A stretch of DNA of 64,000 bases from an uncultured Sphingorhabdus sp. (GTDB lineage Bacteria > Pseudomonadota > Alphaproteobacteria > Sphingomonadales > Sphingomonadaceae), in contig CANLOL010000001.1 of NCBI GenBank assembly GCA_947492905.1, forward strand, positions 350,578 to 414,577, in the 5' to 3' direction. The translations under genes and the position numbers were made by a program. The notes under the pieces are model-generated. The model was not told where the DNA came from. It did no database searches and saw only the letters and a program-made list of their open reading frames with translations. How positions within the stretch are numbered: position 1 is the first letter of the stretch; the number at the start of each line of letters is the position of its first letter. Positions 42,144 to 50,326 of the stretch are shown piece after piece.

Positions 42144-43013
42144 ATGAGCGAATGGGTTATCGGTATTATTGGTGGATCGGGCCTATATGCTCTTGATGCT
42201 CTGGAAAATCCGCAATGGGAAAAAATTGAGTCGCCATGGGGTCAGCCTTCGGATGAATTGCTCAGCGGTACGATAGCTGGCGTAAAATGTATATTTCTGC
42301 CGCGCCATGGACGGGGCCATCATATTGGGCCAAGCCAGCTTAATTTTCGGGCGAATATAGATATATTAAAACGTGCAGGCGTCACCGATATAGTCTCTAT
42401 TTCCGCTATAGGATCATTGTGCGAAGAAATGGCTCCGGGAGATTTTATCGCAGTCGATCAATTTATTGATCGGACGTTCGCGCGCGAAAAAAGCTTTTTT
42501 GGTGAAGGCGTTGTTGCGCATGTATCAATGGCCGAACCTATTTGTCCGCGCCTATCGGATTATGCAGCAAATGCTGCGGAAAAAGCAGGCGCAAATGTTC
42601 ATCGCGGTGGCACTTATTTGGCGATGGAAGGGCCGCAATTTTCTTCTAAAGCAGAAAGCCATATGTACCGCAATTGGGGCGCGCATGTCATTGGCATGAC
42701 GGCAATGCCCGAAGCCAAATTAGCCCGCGAAGCTGAACTACCTTATGCCTTAATCGGGATGGTGACAGATTATGATTGTTGGCGCGAAAATGAAGCACAT
42801 GTTGAGGTAGAAACTATCATTGCGCAATTACAGAGCAATGCAGAAAAAGGCCGCAATATGGTCGAGCATTTGGTGCGCTCTCTGCCAGAGAAACGCGAAG
42901 CCTGTCCCATTGATACTGTGTTGGATTTTGCCCTTATCACCGATCCATCGGCCCGCAATCAAGAGCTTATCAAAAAATTGGATGCAGTGGCGGGACGCGC
43001 GCTAGGCTCTTAA
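42144..43013 (+). CDS. mtnP: S-methyl-5'-thioadenosine phosphorylase
   Basis: A 289-residue PNP-fold phosphorylase that splits 5'-methylthioadenosine into adenine and methylthioribose-1-phosphate. Motifs are G-I-I-G-G-S-G-L-Y near the start, F-L-P-R-H-G-R-G-H (phosphate site), M-E-G-P-Q-F-S-S-K-A-E-S (substrate site) and V-T-D-Y-D-C-W near 210-216. It stands 100 bases after the divergent pabB start and converges with the radical SAM gene, separated by the tandem repeat. See findings for a possible alternative substrate. Confidence 0.95.
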   Translation: MSEWVIGIIGGSGLYALDALENPQWEKIESPWGQPSDELLSGTIAGVKCIFLPRHGRGHHIGPSQLNFRANIDILKRAGVTDIVSISAIGSLCEEMAPGDFIAVDQFIDRTFAREKSFFGEGVVAHVSMAEPICPRLSDYAANAAEKAGANVHRGGTYLAMEGPQFSSKAESHMYRNWGAHVIGMTAMPEAKLAREAELPYALIGMVTDYDCWRENEAHVEVETIIAQLQSNAEKGRNMVEHLVRSLPEKREACPIDTVLDFALITDPSARNQELIKKLDAVAGRALGS

Positions 43014-43063: not shown

Positions 43064-43172
43064 GCCCTTTTACACGGAGCAGCTTGCGCCGCCTTTTATA
43101 CCGAGCAGCTTGCGCCGGCCCTTTTATACTGAGCAGCTTGCGCCGGCCCTTTTATACTGAGCAGCTTGCGCC
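43064..43172. repeat. Four-copy tandem repeat between mtnP and the radical SAM gene
   Basis: About four tandem copies of a 26-29 base unit; in plus orientation GGCCCTTTTATACTGAGCAG then CTTGCGCC is the typical form. The rightmost copy lies inside the 3' end of the radical SAM gene and encodes its last residues and stop (43152-43154). GGCGCAAGC/GCTTGCGCC-like halves in neighbouring units can pair, giving hairpins in either transcript, so it may also terminate both convergent genes. Confidence 0.88.
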
Positions 43173-44135
43173 GCCTAGCACACAAAATCTAGCGCAATGC
43201 GGATGGTTTAATTTCACATCCTGCATCGATTCTTCCAGCGTTTCACCCATATCAAATTGCGGATCATAAGGCAGCAATGTACAGGCCGCCACGCGCGGTG
43301 TATCCTCGCCTTTGCGTTTCACCACCATGCGGCTGCTAGCGCACATTATAGTAGCAGGATCTACATCCAATATACCCCAGCATGATGTTGTAATCTCGGC
43401 AACATCGGCGCGCGCATCCATCTCTGGAAACAGCATGAGATGCGCAGGATTAGCTGCATCAAGCGGCAATAAATTATCGGTAAATAGAGCCGCATAGCCT
43501 TGCATAGCTAATGTATTGCTCTCGCCAGGCAAATGCCGACCTGCTATAGCCAATGGGAAATTATGAGCCGCTAGCCATTTCAGCCCATCTATTGCTTTAT
43601 CCCAACTATTGGGGCCACGCTCTTCTTCGTGAATGGCCTTGGTAAAATGATCGAGACTCACCCGAAAAGTAAGCTGATCGCGTTTGGGTAAATCTAATAA
43701 TTTTTGTTCAAACCTGCGCATCGGCCGCATAGCATTGGATAGCACCAATACCTTAAAATCTCTGTCCAAGCATAGCGACAATATCGCTATCATGTCAGGA
43801 TTCATAAAAGGCTCACCGCCGGTAAAGGCTATTTCCTTTATGGGCAGATTCTTTTGCGCAATTTCATCTAAATATGTGCGCACTTCTTCTAATGTTATAT
43901 AGACTAAAGCATCATTTTTGGGTGAGCTTTCAATATAACAATTTTTACAAGCCAGATTGCACAATGTGCCTGTGTTAAACCAAATCGTCTCAAACTCTGT
44001 CATCGCAACAGATGCTCTTGTCTCACCTTTGGCGGTAAAGTCTGGGTTTTGGAATTTATCGCTCTTGAGCTCTTTAAAATCACTCTCGACAAAGGGCGAT
44101 ATTGTATCAATTTCTAAATTTGTGTTTGGGGGCAT
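43152..44135 (-). CDS. Radical SAM protein with Cys-rich C-terminus
   Basis: A 327-residue radical SAM enzyme. The SAM-cluster motif C-N-L-A-C-K-N-C is at C59-C63-C66 and G-G-E-P at 106-109. Beyond the barrel the C-terminus has six more cysteines (C252, C265, C285, C314, C318, C325), suggesting an auxiliary SPASM-like Fe-S cluster. It does not show the C-Y-G-C type tail I associate with ArsS, so it is not a standard arsenosugar ArsS. It diverges from arsM across 152 bases. The final codons (G-A-S-C-S-V-stop) are one unit of the tandem repeat. Confidence 0.9.
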   Translation of the reverse strand: MPPNTNLEIDTISPFVESDFKELKSDKFQNPDFTAKGETRASVAMTEFETIWFNTGTLCNLACKNCYIESSPKNDALVYITLEEVRTYLDEIAQKNLPIKEIAFTGGEPFMNPDMIAILSLCLDRDFKVLVLSNAMRPMRRFEQKLLDLPKRDQLTFRVSLDHFTKAIHEEERGPNSWDKAIDGLKWLAAHNFPLAIAGRHLPGESNTLAMQGYAALFTDNLLPLDAANPAHLMLFPEMDARADVAEITTSCWGILDVDPATIMCASSRMVVKRKGEDTPRVAACTLLPYDPQFDMGETLEESMQDVKLNHPHCARFCVLGGASCSV

Positions 44136-44244
44136 ATATATAATTTCGTTATTTTCACTAAAAGGTTACTGGACATATATTAAGACGCTAGATTATTGTC
44201 ATGCAAATGCAATATCGTGCTGCTAGGGGGTGTAACCAATCCAG

Positions 44245-44254
44245 CGTTATAACG
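44245..44254. promoter_or_regulatory. Palindrome CGTTATAACG in the arsM / radical SAM promoter gap
   Basis: A perfect 10-base palindrome 34 bases before the arsM start; the nearby ATAACGAAA (44249-44257) has an exact inverted partner TTTCGTTAT at 44144-44152, close to the radical SAM start. The pairing suggests an operator serving both divergent genes. No regulator gene is adjacent. Confidence 0.4.
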
Positions 44255-44287
44255 AAACTTATTTATACATCTATTTAGGAAATACTG

Positions 44288-45343
44288 ATGAACCTTGAAA
44301 ATAGTCAAAATTATTATGGTGAAGTTTTGGGCGGATCTGATGATCTGCTAACCGATGCCTGCACCATGGCCGATATGCCAACATTACGTGTGCGCAAAGC
44401 ATTGGCCAATGTCCATGAAGAGGTGAAATCACGCTATTATGGTTGTGGGCTTGTTGCCCCTGCCGCTATCGAAGGGGCGCGCATATTAGACCTAGGTTCT
44501 GGTAGTGGCCAAGATGCTTATTTGCTCGCGCAATTGGTTGGTGAACATGGCAGTATTGTCGGCGTTGACGCAACCCCTGCGCAGCTTAAAGTTGCGAATG
44601 ATCATATCGAATGGCACCGCGAAAAATTTGGCTATGCCAAATCAAACGTCAGCTTTATTGAGGGCGATATTGAAAAATTAGACGAATTAGGTCTCGAAGA
44701 AGCTAGCTTTGATATTATCGTTTCCAATTGTGTCATCAATCTTGTTGCAGACAAAGGCGCTGTATTTCGCGCGGCGCAAAAATTATTGAAACCAGGCGGC
44801 GAGCTCTATTTCTCTGATGTTTATTCTGATCGACGCGTACCCGCTGAGCTTCTCGATGATCCGATTTTGCATGGCGAATGCCTTTCGGGTGCATTATATT
44901 GGGGTGACTTTATGAGCATTGCCAAGCAATCTGGCTTCGGTGATCCGCGCTTAGTTAATGATCGCCCATTGGGCATTGGTGATGATAAAATTGCCGCCAA
45001 ATTAGACGGCATTAATTTCTTCTCATCCACATATAGATTGTTCAACATTGCCGATTTAGAGCCTGAATGCGAAGATTATGGACAGGCCGTTATATATAAA
45101 GGCGGCGTGGTCGACCAAGAGCGCGTTTTCATTTTGGACAAACATCATGCGATAGAGGCTGGCCGTATATTCCCAATTTGCGGCAATAGCTGGAAGATGC
45201 TTGCCGATACACGTTTTGCCAAAAACTTCACCTTCGTAGGTGATTTTTCCAAACATTATGGCGTGTTCGACGGATGCGGCGGCGGATTGCCCTATGATAT
45301 GGATGGCGGAACAAAGGGTGCAGAACCAGCGGCTTGCTGCTGA
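44288..45343 (+). CDS. arsM: Arsenite S-adenosylmethionine methyltransferase
   Basis: A 351-residue SAM methyltransferase that turns As(III) into methylated arsenicals. The SAM loop D-L-G-S-G-S-G-Q is at 68-75. The N-terminus shows the N-Y-Y-G-E-V-L motif of ArsM, and four cysteines C25, C53, C148 (S-N-C-V-I-N-L) and C198 (G-E-C-L-S-G-A-L-Y) match the positions of C44, C72, C174 and C224 of the algal CmArsM, with 28, 95 and 50 residue spacings against 28, 102 and 50. The C-terminus ends in C-C, as in many ArsM proteins. Its stop abuts the stop of the convergent glycosyltransferase. Confidence 0.93.
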   Translation: MNLENSQNYYGEVLGGSDDLLTDACTMADMPTLRVRKALANVHEEVKSRYYGCGLVAPAAIEGARILDLGSGSGQDAYLLAQLVGEHGSIVGVDATPAQLKVANDHIEWHREKFGYAKSNVSFIEGDIEKLDELGLEEASFDIIVSNCVINLVADKGAVFRAAQKLLKPGGELYFSDVYSDRRVPAELLDDPILHGECLSGALYWGDFMSIAKQSGFGDPRLVNDRPLGIGDDKIAAKLDGINFFSSTYRLFNIADLEPECEDYGQAVIYKGGVVDQERVFILDKHHAIEAGRIFPICGNSWKMLADTRFAKNFTFVGDFSKHYGVFDGCGGGLPYDMDGGTKGAEPAACC

Positions 45344-46072
45344 TTATCTTATATCTGGATAATGATCTGCTAGACGCTCGCGCGCACCAAAAGCCCACAT
45401 AAGGCCTACTTTTAAATATATATAATTGGCCCGCCATCGTCCCCATTGGGCGATTCGGCGGTCCGATGTCCACACCCAGCGCATTAATATTTTGGTTTTT
45501 CCATAGCGCGATAATTTAATGCAAAGATCGGCCTCTTCCATCACTGCCACGCGTTCATCGCAGCCCCCTACTTCTCTGTAATGGGCTCTGCGGAAGAACA
45601 TAGCATGGTCACCATATAGCAATCGCACGCCATGCATGAAAAAGAGGCGCGGACGAAATAACATAGGCGTATACCATGTTTTTAACCAATTATGGATGCT
45701 AGAGCCCCATCGCGTGCCATTGTCTCCCGCTATGCGCGGCGTAAAACCAGCCAAGGCCAGAGTTTCATCTGTCATCGCCGATTTTATAACGGCGACACCA
45801 TCAATGGGCAGCATGGAATCGCCATGCAAGATACAAATTACATCACCACTGACGTTTTCAACACCATAATTAATTTGCGCCGCGCGGCCTCTGGTTGGGG
45901 ATGTCATTATTTTTAGTCCAGCATTTTGCGCTATAAGCAGGCTATCATCTTCGCTCTTACCATCAATCAATAATATTTCATCAGGCTGTGGGTTGAGGCG
46001 TTTTAATGCCGCAATAGAATCAGGAAGCGCCGCCGATTCGTTATAAATAGGCATGATGATAGACAGTTTCAT
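45344..46072 (-). CDS. GT2 glycosyltransferase, TIGR04283 type
   Basis: A 242-residue family-2 glycosyltransferase. The N-terminal I-I-M-P-I-Y-N-E-S is standard, G-R-A-A-Q-I-N-Y-G is the signature stretch of TIGR04283, and the metal-binding D-x-D block reads H-G-D-S-M-L-P. NCBI names this family an arsenosugar biosynthesis-associated glycosyltransferase. It overlaps the TIGR04282 gene by four bases, so the two work together. No membrane segment is strong; likely cytoplasmic or peripheral. Confidence 0.9.
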   Translation of the reverse strand: MKLSIIMPIYNESAALPDSIAALKRLNPQPDEILLIDGKSEDDSLLIAQNAGLKIMTSPTRGRAAQINYGVENVSGDVICILHGDSMLPIDGVAVIKSAMTDETLALAGFTPRIAGDNGTRWGSSIHNWLKTWYTPMLFRPRLFFMHGVRLLYGDHAMFFRRAHYREVGGCDERVAVMEEADLCIKLSRYGKTKILMRWVWTSDRRIAQWGRWRANYIYLKVGLMWAFGARERLADHYPDIR

Positions 46073-46728
46073 AATTTCACATCATCCATAGCATCGCGCA
46101 GCCAAGGCCAGCGCGCCAAATCTTCGGGCATGTCACAATCGCTCAATGGCTCTAACATTTTGACTTTTAATCCCATAGCTTCGCAGCGTTCTAATGTGGT
46201 TGGTAATACTGCATCGCTGCTCCAAGGCATATCTTTTAGCAATATATCATGGGGGCTGTTCATCCCAATCAGATAATAGCCACCATCCAGAGCAGGCCCT
46301 ATGACTATGTCATAATCCATCAGTGCGCGCATCGCTTCTTTCACATGGTTTTCACTTAAGTCTGGAGTGTCCGATCCAAAAAATATGACAGGGGCTGGTT
46401 CTAAACAGGCCAATAGCCGATCCGTCAAATCCCCCTCTGGTTGACGCTGATAATATATATCATCAATATCGATCCATTGCTCAAACTGGTCTAAGCTTCC
46501 GCCAGTATATGATATAATAGCCTGACTTTTACAATGAGCCAGAGTTTCATCACAAGAAAGCGAGGCATTATATAGAGTATTGATAGTGCGGTGCGCCAAT
46601 ATTTTGTGGATTTTAGCAGCACCGCTCTCTCCAACAGCGGGGATAAGACGCGTCTTAGCTTTGCCCGCCACGGGGTATCGCGCAAATATAATCAGGCGTA
46701 TATTTTGAGTTTCTGGCTTATCTATCAT
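46069..46728 (-). CDS. Glycosyltransferase, TIGR04282 type
   Basis: A 219-residue nucleotide-diphospho-sugar-transferase-like protein. The start F-A-R-Y-P-V-A-G-K-A-K-T-R-L is the family signature and F-G-S-D-T-P-D-L / G-P-A-L-D-G-G-Y-Y-L-I-G complete it. The ATG at 46728 is preferred; a GTG at 46737 would add three residues. NCBI lists the family as arsenosugar biosynthesis-associated, usually paired with TIGR04283 as here. It is transcribed first, with TIGR04283 overlapping its end. Confidence 0.9.
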   Translation of the reverse strand: MIDKPETQNIRLIIFARYPVAGKAKTRLIPAVGESGAAKIHKILAHRTINTLYNASLSCDETLAHCKSQAIISYTGGSLDQFEQWIDIDDIYYQRQPEGDLTDRLLACLEPAPVIFFGSDTPDLSENHVKEAMRALMDYDIVIGPALDGGYYLIGMNSPHDILLKDMPWSSDAVLPTTLERCEAMGLKVKMLEPLSDCDMPEDLARWPWLRDAMDDVKL

Positions 46729-46897
46729 AATATGCACTTAAATTATTTATCAAAAAATAATAGTATTTTTGAATATCTTATCCCTCTATTCTAAAATATA
46801 ATAAAAAAAATCACCCCCTTGTAACCATTAAAGCCTGTCTTGCGAATAGACATATGAACATTGAGTAATTGTTTTTTAGTAGACGAGGAATTAGATC

Positions 46898-47281: not shown

Positions 47282-49243
47282 GTGTCTATAAATCCATATA
47301 ACATTACGGCTGCATTGGTTTCTATAACCAGTGTGGCCGTTCTTGTATTTATATCTCGATATTTGGACATATCTTTTCTCTACTATGTAGCAACTTTATC
47401 GCTCTCAACGGCATTAACCTTTGCCCTATTGCGCAAATCAAATAAGCTTAATTTTGGCTTATTTTGGGCAATCACTATTGCCATGCATGCTATGGCAATA
47501 TTTGGTGTTGCCCTATATGAGGATGATTATTTCCGATTTATCTTGGATGGCTGGCAAGTATTACAAGGCACGCCTTATGGCAAAGCGCCTGCTGAATTTT
47601 ATTCAGATCCAAATCTGCCGGGACATTTATGGCCCATATTAGACAATGTGAATAACCCCAATGTTCCGACAATTTACGGACCAACATTGCAATTTATATT
47701 TGCGGCTATTTACGCCATATTTAATATTGATCCAATCGGTTTGCGCATCGTCTTTGCGATTATCAACATAGCGTTGATTGCTATATTGACGCGCCGGTAT
47801 CCGCTGCATCAAGTCGCTCTTTATGCATGGTGCCCCTTAGTGGTGACTGAATTAATAATCCATATCCATCCTGATGGCATAATGGTTATGTTTTTGGCTG
47901 CTGGTTTATGGCTAGCCCGCAAACATCCTATATTGGCAGGTACATTATGGGGCGCAGCCGCAGGCGTCAAAATTATCGCATTGGCAGCTTGGCCATTGAT
48001 GCTGCGTTGGCCCAAAAAAGCGCTAATTTCGGCTATCGTAACATTATCAATCCTCTATGGTTATTTCGCTCTATTGGGGCCTAGCCTTGGATTCGACTCC
48101 ACCAGTACATTTGCCAATGAATGGCTCTTCAATCCAATGGGCTTTACGCTGCTTTCCATCGTAGCCCCCCAAAATATCGCACGTTTATTAGCCGCTATTA
48201 TCGGTATTATAATCATAATGTTCATTCATGCGCGGACGCGCGACAAGGATTTTCCTCCTTTGGCGGCTATTTTTGGGATTATTTTGTTTTTGGCGCCAGC
48301 GGTAAATAGCTGGTATATGATTTGGATATTGCCATTTGCTATTGGATCGCGCCAAATCTGGCCATTTGTTGCCGCCAGCTTCATTCCATTAAGCTATATA
48401 ACCGGTCTTACATTAGATACAGAAACGCTGCGCGAATTTGAGGTCCATATGGCTGCATGGAGCATCGAAGCTATCGCAATCTTGAGCGCATTACTCTATG
48501 ATCTCATTCAAACCAAACGCCATAAATTACAGGAAACTCTGCCAGCCACACCGATAGAGAATCCTAATATTGGTGTTGTAATTCCGGCGCTCAATGAGCA
48601 AGATTCGATTGGTGGGGTGGTATCCTCGCTCCGTGATTTAGATGCTTCTATCATTGTTGCTGATAATGGCTCCACCGATGAAACGGCTGATTATGCTATT
48701 GCCGCTGGCGCAAAAATTGTGACTGAGAAACAAAAAGGCTATGGCGCTGCTTGTTTAGCAGGGATTGCAGCCTTACCGGATCATGTGAATATCATTCTTT
48801 TCATTGATGCAGATGGATCCGATGTGCCCGATGAGGCCATGCATTTAATCCAGCCGATTATTGACGGCCATGCCGATATGGTTATTGGTTCACGCGCTTT
48901 AGGGAATATAGAAAATGGCGCAATGACACCGCCGCAACGTTTTGGCAATTGGCTCTCTACGCGATTGGTTAAATTGATATGGCAAAAGAATATCACCGAC
49001 CTTGGCCCATTTCGGGCGATACGGCGTGATGCACTGGAACAGCTGGCCATGGCAGATCGTGATTTTGGTTGGACGATTGAAATGCAAGTAAAGGCGATAC
49101 AGCATGAAATGCGCGTTTTGGAGCGCCCTGCCAATTATCGCAAGCGCATTGGTATATCGAAAATTTCAGGAACAATTAGCGGTGTATGGGGCGCTGGCAC
49201 CAAGATATTATATGTGATTGGGCGCGAAGCGTTTTTCCGTTAA
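47282..49243 (+). CDS. Fused GT-C membrane glycosyltransferase and GT2 glycosyltransferase
   Basis: A 653-residue fusion. Residues 1-410 have ten or more membrane segments and the acidic loop E-D-D-Y-F-R-F-I-L-D-G-W (near 80-91) typical of lipid-linked-sugar GT-C mannosyltransferases. Residues about 430-640 are a GT2 domain (V-V-I-P-A-L-N-E-Q-D-S, A-D-N-G-S-T-D, D-A-D-G-S-D) resembling polyprenyl-phosphate sugar synthases. One protein could thus make a polyprenyl-phosphate sugar and transfer it. The start is GTG at 47282. Follows the small cytochrome-like gene. Confidence 0.9.
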   Translation: MSINPYNITAALVSITSVAVLVFISRYLDISFLYYVATLSLSTALTFALLRKSNKLNFGLFWAITIAMHAMAIFGVALYEDDYFRFILDGWQVLQGTPYGKAPAEFYSDPNLPGHLWPILDNVNNPNVPTIYGPTLQFIFAAIYAIFNIDPIGLRIVFAIINIALIAILTRRYPLHQVALYAWCPLVVTELIIHIHPDGIMVMFLAAGLWLARKHPILAGTLWGAAAGVKIIALAAWPLMLRWPKKALISAIVTLSILYGYFALLGPSLGFDSTSTFANEWLFNPMGFTLLSIVAPQNIARLLAAIIGIIIIMFIHARTRDKDFPPLAAIFGIILFLAPAVNSWYMIWILPFAIGSRQIWPFVAASFIPLSYITGLTLDTETLREFEVHMAAWSIEAIAILSALLYDLIQTKRHKLQETLPATPIENPNIGVVIPALNEQDSIGGVVSSLRDLDASIIVADNGSTDETADYAIAAGAKIVTEKQKGYGAACLAGIAALPDHVNIILFIDADGSDVPDEAMHLIQPIIDGHADMVIGSRALGNIENGAMTPPQRFGNWLSTRLVKLIWQKNITDLGPFRAIRRDALEQLAMADRDFGWTIEMQVKAIQHEMRVLERPANYRKRIGISKISGTISGVWGAGTKILYVIGREAFFR

Positions 49244-49384: not shown

Positions 49385-50326
49385 TTATGCCGATCTGCGG
49401 CGTTTCACCAAACGCCATCCGCCATATAATAGGCCCAATAATATCAAAATACCGATGCCAAATGGTATAGGATATGCGCTAGCAATCCAAAGCGGAGAAA
49501 TGCCGCCGCTTACTTCGCCTTCCGGAATTGTGACATCATTGAGACGCCAATCATATTCGCTAAATTCAATATCATATTCACCCGCAGCAAGCGCTTCGCT
49601 CTGATCTGCATCAAGGCCTAGACTATCGCCATAAAGCGCCAAAAATTCACCAAGATCAATTGCATCACGCCATCCTGCTTCAAAGTCACCGCCATACCAC
49701 TCAAAGATTTGAGAAACGGTAACGACTTCGCCATTGACAAAGTTGCGAGTGCGATCAGTTAGAAAATCTTGCGTTGCTTTTTCGAGCTGCGCGTCCACTT
49801 TCTCGCCCGTAAAGGCTTCGTTGATTAACGGCGGGCAGCCAATGCTGGCGCAATTAACGCCAAAGTGGATGCGCGGTTCGTTATAACGGCCACTGCCACG
49901 GATCATATCATGCTCAATATTGTCAAGCGATACATTTTGACCCAATAATGGCACAAATTCTTTTTTCCAAGGTGAACTTGTAACCGTACCCAATTCTTTG
50001 ATCGAATTAAGATCAGGATATTTAGTAAGGATTAATTCAACCGTAAATGCATTATAAGCATTCATAAGAAATGCTAATTGTTCATCAGAAGACCATGCAT
50101 CAAATGTTGCTTGGTCTACAGCTGATAATTGATCCAAATAGGCTTTGAGCTGCTCTTGCTTCGTTTGCACATTGGCATAATCAAAGCTTGTTGCTCCAGG
50201 GCCGATGATTTTAACATTTTCTTTGACAATATCATCCCATGCTTGGTGGTCAAAACTTTGGGCCATAGCGGGTGATGAAATACCTGCCATCAAAGCTATC
50301 ATAATTGGTGCTGTATATTTTAACAT
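49385..50326 (-). CDS. DUF547 secreted protein with C-terminal membrane anchor
   Basis: A 313-residue protein with an N-terminal signal peptide (about residues 1-22, ending A-M-A-Q-S), a DUF547 domain carrying N-A-Y-N-A-F-T-V, and the C-A-S-I-G-C-P-P motif near residues 161-168, and a C-terminal hydrophobic helix (about 282-304) followed by K-R-R-R. It is therefore exported and retained in the membrane. DUF547 genes are often found near TIGR04282/TIGR04283 loci. The terminal anchor plus basic tail looks like a sorting tail; no known sorting motif is seen. Confidence 0.9.
   Translation of the reverse strand: MLKYTAPIMIALMAGISSPAMAQSFDHQAWDDIVKENVKIIGPGATSFDYANVQTKQEQLKAYLDQLSAVDQATFDAWSSDEQLAFLMNAYNAFTVELILTKYPDLNSIKELGTVTSSPWKKEFVPLLGQNVSLDNIEHDMIRGSGRYNEPRIHFGVNCASIGCPPLINEAFTGEKVDAQLEKATQDFLTDRTRNFVNGEVVTVSQIFEWYGGDFEAGWRDAIDLGEFLALYGDSLGLDADQSEALAAGEYDIEFSEYDWRLNDVTIPEGEVSGGISPLWIASAYPIPFGIGILILLGLLYGGWRLVKRRRSA

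Follow-up and report, generated by a model that had tools for sequence, protein, structure and literature searches.

A candidate second radical SAM enzyme for the ArsS step of arsenosugar biosynthesis in Alphaproteobacteria

Background

To our knowledge, ArsS is the only enzyme known to place a sugar carbon on arsenic. A related two-step logic, in which the addition of a 5'-deoxyadenosyl group is followed by phosphorolysis of the resulting nucleoside, is that of HpnH (adenosylhopane synthase) and the HpnG phosphorylase. In PMC12159101 (citing Cheng et al. 2021) and PMC8552651, ArsS is described as an enzyme that adenosylates arsenic, and ArsS and ArsM together as catalyzing the first steps of arsenosugar synthesis. 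A further radical SAM enzyme, the arsinothricin synthase ArsL, is encoded in an arsQML cluster, transfers a 3-amino-3-carboxypropyl group, and displays three conserved cysteines only in a chain of 428 residues (PMC8552651).

The locus

The window (that is, the whole stretch of 64,000 nucleotides that was analysed, from an uncultured Sphingorhabdus species) contains a gene for a radical SAM protein that is convergent with a gene for S-methyl-5'-thioadenosine phosphorylase (MTAP) and divergent from a gene for an ArsM-type methyltransferase, beyond which lie two glycosyltransferase genes, a gene for a membrane/GT2 protein and one for a DUF547 protein. The features appear in the following order:

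42144 to 43013, plus strand: S-methyl-5'-thioadenosine phosphorylase (MTAP), convergent with the radical SAM gene (462 bits, cut-off 437)
43064 to 43173, no strand: 28-bp tandem repeat of four copies, derived from the radical SAM gene's 3' end and copied downstream, between the convergent genes
43152 to 44135, minus strand: radical SAM protein of 327 residues, proposed functional replacement of ArsS (core cysteines C59/C63/C66; tail cysteines C252/C265/C285/C314/C318/C325)
44136 to 44287, no strand: divergent intergenic region of 152 bp between the radical SAM gene and arsM, with weak promoter-like matches only
44288 to 45343, plus strand: ArsM-type arsenite methyltransferase of 351 residues, the divergent partner, of a subfamily that also adjoins ArsS in Gammaproteobacteria
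45344 to 46072, minus strand: glycosyltransferase of family 2, similar to TIGR04283 ('arsenosugar biosynthesis glycosyltransferase') at 161 bits, against a cut-off of 182
46069 to 46737, minus strand: TIGR04282 'arsenosugar biosynthesis glycosyltransferase', at 171 bits against a cut-off of 134, overlapping the TIGR04283-like gene by 4 bp
47282 to 49243, plus strand: large membrane protein with a C-terminal GT2 domain, relatives of which recur in these clusters, including an operon of inferred gammaproteobacterial origin (L170)
49385 to 50326, minus strand: DUF547 protein, recurring in 10 loci (mostly of Sphingomonads) and in the L170 operon

For both TIGR04282 and TIGR04283, the label 'arsenosugar' comes from NCBI annotation and does not denote a tested function. 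The MTAP is the sole one found in the genome, and must therefore serve the ordinary recycling of MTA as well. An earlier reading, made from the sequence alone, had named ArsM as the divergent partner of the radical SAM gene, and this assignment was borne out.

A radical SAM family with nine invariant cysteines

The protein belongs to the radical SAM superfamily both by its CxxxCxxC motif (C59/C63/C66) and by its match to the radical SAM core model PF04055 (73.1 bits, cut-off 29.5), which together with Fer4_12 accounted for all of its Pfam matches. Its cysteines lie at positions 59, 63, 66, 122, 252, 265, 285, 314, 318 and 325. Nine of them, three in the core and six in the C-terminal region, are invariant across 111 homologues (C285 being present in 110, with one X), and the same nine are kept in gammaproteobacterial homologues that display only 32-38% identity, so that their conservation lies far beyond chance. 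The homologue at locus L172 lost its N-terminal part in one alignment through the choice of start, and is intact in a fuller one. Both the intact core and the six additional cysteines had been recognized in the sequence-only reading and were upheld at every position; C122, which that reading had omitted, is variable, and is a cysteine in 39 of the 111 homologues.

Comparisons with family models placed the protein outside of every subfamily examined. No match was found at E 0.1 to either DUF3641 (PF12345) or the Pfam SPASM model, and a true ArsS used as a control scored 195 bits for DUF3641. The ArsS model TIGR04167 matched residues 45-190 only, at 61.2 bits against a cut-off of 300. The best NCBIfam match, to the Rv1681 family (NF049973), reached 92.9 bits across residues 50-199, with a cut-off of 380; it is thus restricted to the core, and Rv1681-type proteins were seen with an N-terminal extension and without the cysteine-rich tail. 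Among NCBIfam and Pfam, no subfamily model claimed the protein above its cut-off. The identification of the protein as a plain ArsS is thereby ruled out (by the TIGR04167 score below cut-off and the absence of DUF3641), as is its identification as a known maturase, for which no model scored above cut-off. The search against SPASM, ArsS/DUF3641 and other subfamilies, which had been proposed with the sequence-only reading, thus yielded no clear match to ArsS or to a known maturase, and the description of the protein as a radical SAM enzyme with a conserved cysteine-rich tail that is not ArsS has held. The family is uncharacterised and is covered by no NCBIfam or Pfam subfamily model; a search of mostly open-access literature found no paper on it.

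An AlphaFold2 model of the protein, computed from 38 homologues, was obtained with a pLDDT of 89.2 and a pTM of 0.87. The solved folds nearest to it (BlsE, SkfB, SuiB, MoaA, DesII, anSME and PqqE, at TM scores of only 0.44-0.55) are largely of the SPASM/twitch type, and several of them harbor auxiliary clusters, although metal sites are invisible in the model itself. The strict SPASM motif, C-x9-15-G-x4-C ... C-x2-C-x5-C-x3-C, is absent: the actual spacing is C265-x19-C285, without a glycine at the corresponding place, followed by C314-x3-C318-x6-C325. The earlier suggestion of an auxiliary Fe-S cluster of SPASM kind therefore agrees roughly with the nearest folds, but departs from both the strict motif and the Pfam model. 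At least one auxiliary Fe-S cluster is probably bound by the six cysteines of the tail.

A tail resembling that of ArsS

While the family is separated from ArsS by its models, a profile-profile comparison of the family with 16 ArsS sequences produced an alignment (98.4% probability, E 7e-15, 269 columns) that reaches the C-terminus and pairs C265, C285, C314, C318 and C325 with C250, C265, C304, C307 and C315 of ArsS. A further 29 radical SAM proteins, drawn from four genomes, served as controls and were aligned with the same family profile. These matched over the core only, with scores that were comparable to those of ArsS or somewhat lower (68-85 for MoaA, 78-88 for NirJ-like and 111.6 for HpnH-like proteins, the labels being our own reading of the control sequences). 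Among the proteins tested, ArsS alone gave alignments that reached the tail, and this did not hold for each individual ArsS sequence. HpnH, which acts on another substrate, accordingly resembles the new family in its core, which aligns well, and differs from it in its tail, which fails to align.

The sequence-only reading had described the C-terminal region as standing 'in place of an ArsS tail'; this is correct insofar as the protein is not an ArsS by family model, but ArsS itself has conserved C-terminal cysteines, and all but one of the six in the tail line up with them. By this alignment, the tail is a diverged or convergent counterpart of the ArsS tail, with an ArsS-like order of cysteines and an additional C252. 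Both proteins possess a radical SAM core and a length of about 320 residues, and their tails read MC-x14-C ... CxxC-x7-C in ArsS and MC-x19-C ... CxxxC-x6-C in the new family, in which the gammaproteobacterial homologues display CxxC; the new family, in turn, does not have the cysteines found at ArsS positions 102 and 132. In a deep tree, ArsS and the new family form separate clades that are weakly joined and are not placed as sisters, and common descent of the two tails is for that reason not proven by the sequence comparison.

Exchange with ArsS among related gene clusters

Two genomes that are given only as members of the same phylum, and whose class we infer to be Gammaproteobacteria, provide compact versions of the cluster. 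At locus L170, the genes for a FAD oxidoreductase, GT2, DUF547 protein, TIGR04282, ArsM, the radical SAM protein and MTAP follow one another on one strand, and at L172 the order is TIGR04282, GT4283, ArsM, radical SAM protein and FAD oxidoreductase. The same partners (ArsM, TIGR04282, TIGR04283, FAD oxidoreductase and MTAP) recur around ArsS: at locus L178, ArsM, both glycosyltransferases, the FAD oxidoreductase and MTAP surround ArsS; at L179, ArsS stands in place of the new radical SAM protein among the same partners; and at L182, MTAP comes after ArsS in the same orientation, with both glycosyltransferases and the FAD oxidoreductase also present. In a tree of ArsM proteins, those of the ArsS loci L178 and L179 and those of the new-family loci L170 and L172 form one clade (95/86), which lies inside the ArsM subfamily of the window and far from the other ArsMs of ArsS loci. 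One ArsM lineage therefore works beside either radical SAM enzyme.

The distribution of the two enzymes conforms to such an exchange. Among 200 genomes of the same family (Sphingomonads), with the radical SAM protein counted at E < 1e-20, that protein was found in 56, TIGR04282 in 57, both in 56, and ArsS in none. In a sample of 299 genomes from the phylum, the radical SAM protein was found in 22, all 22 of which carry TIGR04282, and ArsS in 114 (102 with TIGR04282); no sampled genome contains both radical SAM enzymes. Within ArsS-negative genomes, the association of the radical SAM protein with TIGR04282 gave a Fisher value of 4e-16, uncorrected for relatedness; since such tests ignore relatedness, more weight belongs to the complete separation of the two enzymes and to the repeated appearance of the pattern in different families than to the p-values. 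TIGR04282 was also present in 34 of 36 further carrier genomes, mostly of other Alphaproteobacteria. It is thus well supported that the new family sits, in many Alphaproteobacteria, where other bacteria carry ArsS.

MTAP was found in 56 of 56 Sphingomonad genomes with the radical SAM protein (adjacent in 24) versus 88 of 144 without it. An ArsM of the window type was present in 36 of the 56, lying within 2 kb of the radical SAM gene in 31 of those 36, and no close ArsM was present in the other 20; when ArsM was searched for again (at E 1e-12) in 52 carrier genomes, 41 had no match and 11 had one, four of these being strong. In Roseobacters, the radical SAM gene adjoins zwf and pgl rather than ars genes. 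A divergent arrangement with zwf and pgl (for glucose-6-phosphate dehydrogenase and the lactonase) was seen in about 19 loci (L023, L029, L032-L034, L037, L040, L043, L044 and other Rhodobacteraceae), and probably represents only an old gene order.

Within the genus of the window itself, two genomes (G069 and G138) have neither the radical SAM gene nor TIGR04282, ArsM or MTAP, which suggests that the four-gene block may be gained or lost as a unit. The sole TIGR04282-positive Sphingomonad without the radical SAM gene (G026) yielded no recognisable remnant of it; its genes for TIGR04282, a TIGR04283-like protein and MTAP lie together (L195). Among 148 genomes with TIGR04282, 24 lack ArsS as well as the new radical SAM protein. 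In two of these (G430 and G446), a radical SAM protein of the Rv1681 family is encoded 3-4 kb from TIGR04282 (L192:11073-12191 and L193:11738-12856), the former scoring 497 bits against the cut-off of 380. There may be a third radical SAM enzyme in the TIGR04282 setting, or else TIGR04282 may cover more than its name implies.

Proposed function and its alternatives

From these observations, we consider it fairly probable that the ArsS step of arsenosugar biosynthesis, in which a 5'-deoxyadenosyl group is added to dimethylarsenite, is also carried out by the new family, as a second radical SAM enzyme separate from ArsS. In the corresponding pathway: (i) the core [4Fe-4S] cluster would cleave SAM to generate the 5'-deoxyadenosyl radical; (ii) that radical would combine with dimethylarsenite (DMAs(III)), provided either by ArsM or by uptake, to yield 5'-deoxy-5'-dimethylarsinoyl-adenosine; (iii) the putative auxiliary Fe-S cluster of the tail would bind or orient the arsenical, or take up the extra electron; (iv) the adjacent MTAP would exchange adenine for phosphate on the adenosylated arsenical; and (v) the TIGR04283 and TIGR04282 glycosyltransferases would then build the glycosylated arsenosugar. 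Alternatively, MTAP may do no more than clear 5'-deoxyadenosine and MTA.

The patchy occurrence of ArsM is the main weakness of this proposal, and either the uptake of methylarsenicals or a non-arsenic substrate would explain the carriers that do not have it. In the latter case, some other substrate would be adenosylated or otherwise modified, MTAP and TIGR04282/TIGR04283 would be components of a broader pathway from nucleoside to glycoside, resembling that of HpnH and HpnG in hopanoids, and ArsM would be an occasional neighbor. Such a pathway would account for the presence of TIGR04282, and not of ArsM, in nearly all sampled carriers, for a core of HpnH that aligns as well as that of ArsS (111.6), and for the Roseobacter gene beside zwf; we nevertheless regard it as unlikely, given that ArsM of the window type is so closely linked in Sphingomonads (31 of 36 genomes), that distant gammaproteobacterial operons again place ArsM next to the radical SAM gene, and that the new family excludes ArsS and matches its tail cysteines.

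Two further possibilities retain little weight. The partnership with ArsM would be compatible with the formation of another C-As bond on an ArsM-linked arsenical, either through transfer of a 3-amino-3-carboxypropyl group or through radical methylation, and ArsL is itself a CX3CX2C radical SAM protein that forms a C-As bond and is encoded beside arsM (PMC8552651). However, the nine invariant cysteines and 327 residues of the new family contrast with the three and 428 of ArsL (PMC8552651), its neighbors are different, the MTAP and glycosyltransferase partners suit a nucleoside product and not an amino acid, and the annotated neighbors include no recognisable ArsQ-like transporter, all of which renders this reaction very improbable. 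A SPASM-type peptide or protein maturase, located near ArsM by accident, would be in keeping with the cysteine-rich tail and with the appearance of SkfB, SuiB and anSME among the nearest solved folds; with no maturase model at cut-off, a genome-wide linkage to glycosyltransferases, and a synteny with ArsM that recurs across classes, we find it scarcely credible.

If a second family does act at the ArsS step, then arsenosugar synthesis would reach much of the Alphaproteobacteria, among them abundant groups of marine and freshwater habitats that appear ArsS-negative to current annotation. ArsS and the new family would then form a natural pair with which to examine the purpose of the cysteine-rich tail, and the adjacent MTA phosphorylase would be a named candidate for the step after adenosylation. 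A more speculative extension, which we hold to be possible though doubtful, is that the family was recruited independently and converged on the C-As chemistry of ArsS, and that lineages without ArsM use methylarsenicals that they have taken up, making Roseobacters and Sphingomonads an unrecognised sink or source of arsenosugars, or else that those lineages produce an undescribed, arsenic-free glycoside derived from a nucleoside.

Additional features of the locus and its relatives

A scan of the divergent intergenic region (44136 to 44287) for promoters gave about as many matches as chance predicts, an alignment of three species only was uninformative as to a conserved operator there, and no RNA element was found in the window. 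A MerA-like FAD disulfide oxidoreductase, in some cases apparently fused to a membrane domain, recurs beside ArsS and beside the new radical SAM protein alike (L170:9911-12250, L171:3899-6151, L172:9473-11644, L178:6779-8923 and L182:6065-7546); it could act in arsenic reduction or as a source of electrons. The radical SAM gene of Sphingomonads is often preceded by a FAD oxidoreductase gene of its own, separate from any such fusion. In ten loci other than the window, a NAD-dependent epimerase/SDR-like protein is encoded in the stretch that separates the glycosyltransferases from ArsM or from the radical SAM gene (for example, L010:5759-6814, L011:4753-5853 and L022:4730-5770).

The first of the four 28-bp copies is the radical SAM gene's own end, GGCGGCGCAAGCTGCTCAGTATAA, with the remaining copies placed downstream of it, in the gap between this gene and the convergent MTAP gene. 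The statement in the sequence-only reading that the last cysteine is encoded by a tandem-repeat unit is thus literally true, but had the relationship the wrong way round: C325 is present in every one of the 111 homologues and so was not created by the repeat, which rules it out as a product of that element. The repeated unit was copied from the end of the gene, and the remark concerned a side effect. In relatives the repeat is smaller in extent, with one extra copy at L002 and degenerate copies at L003.
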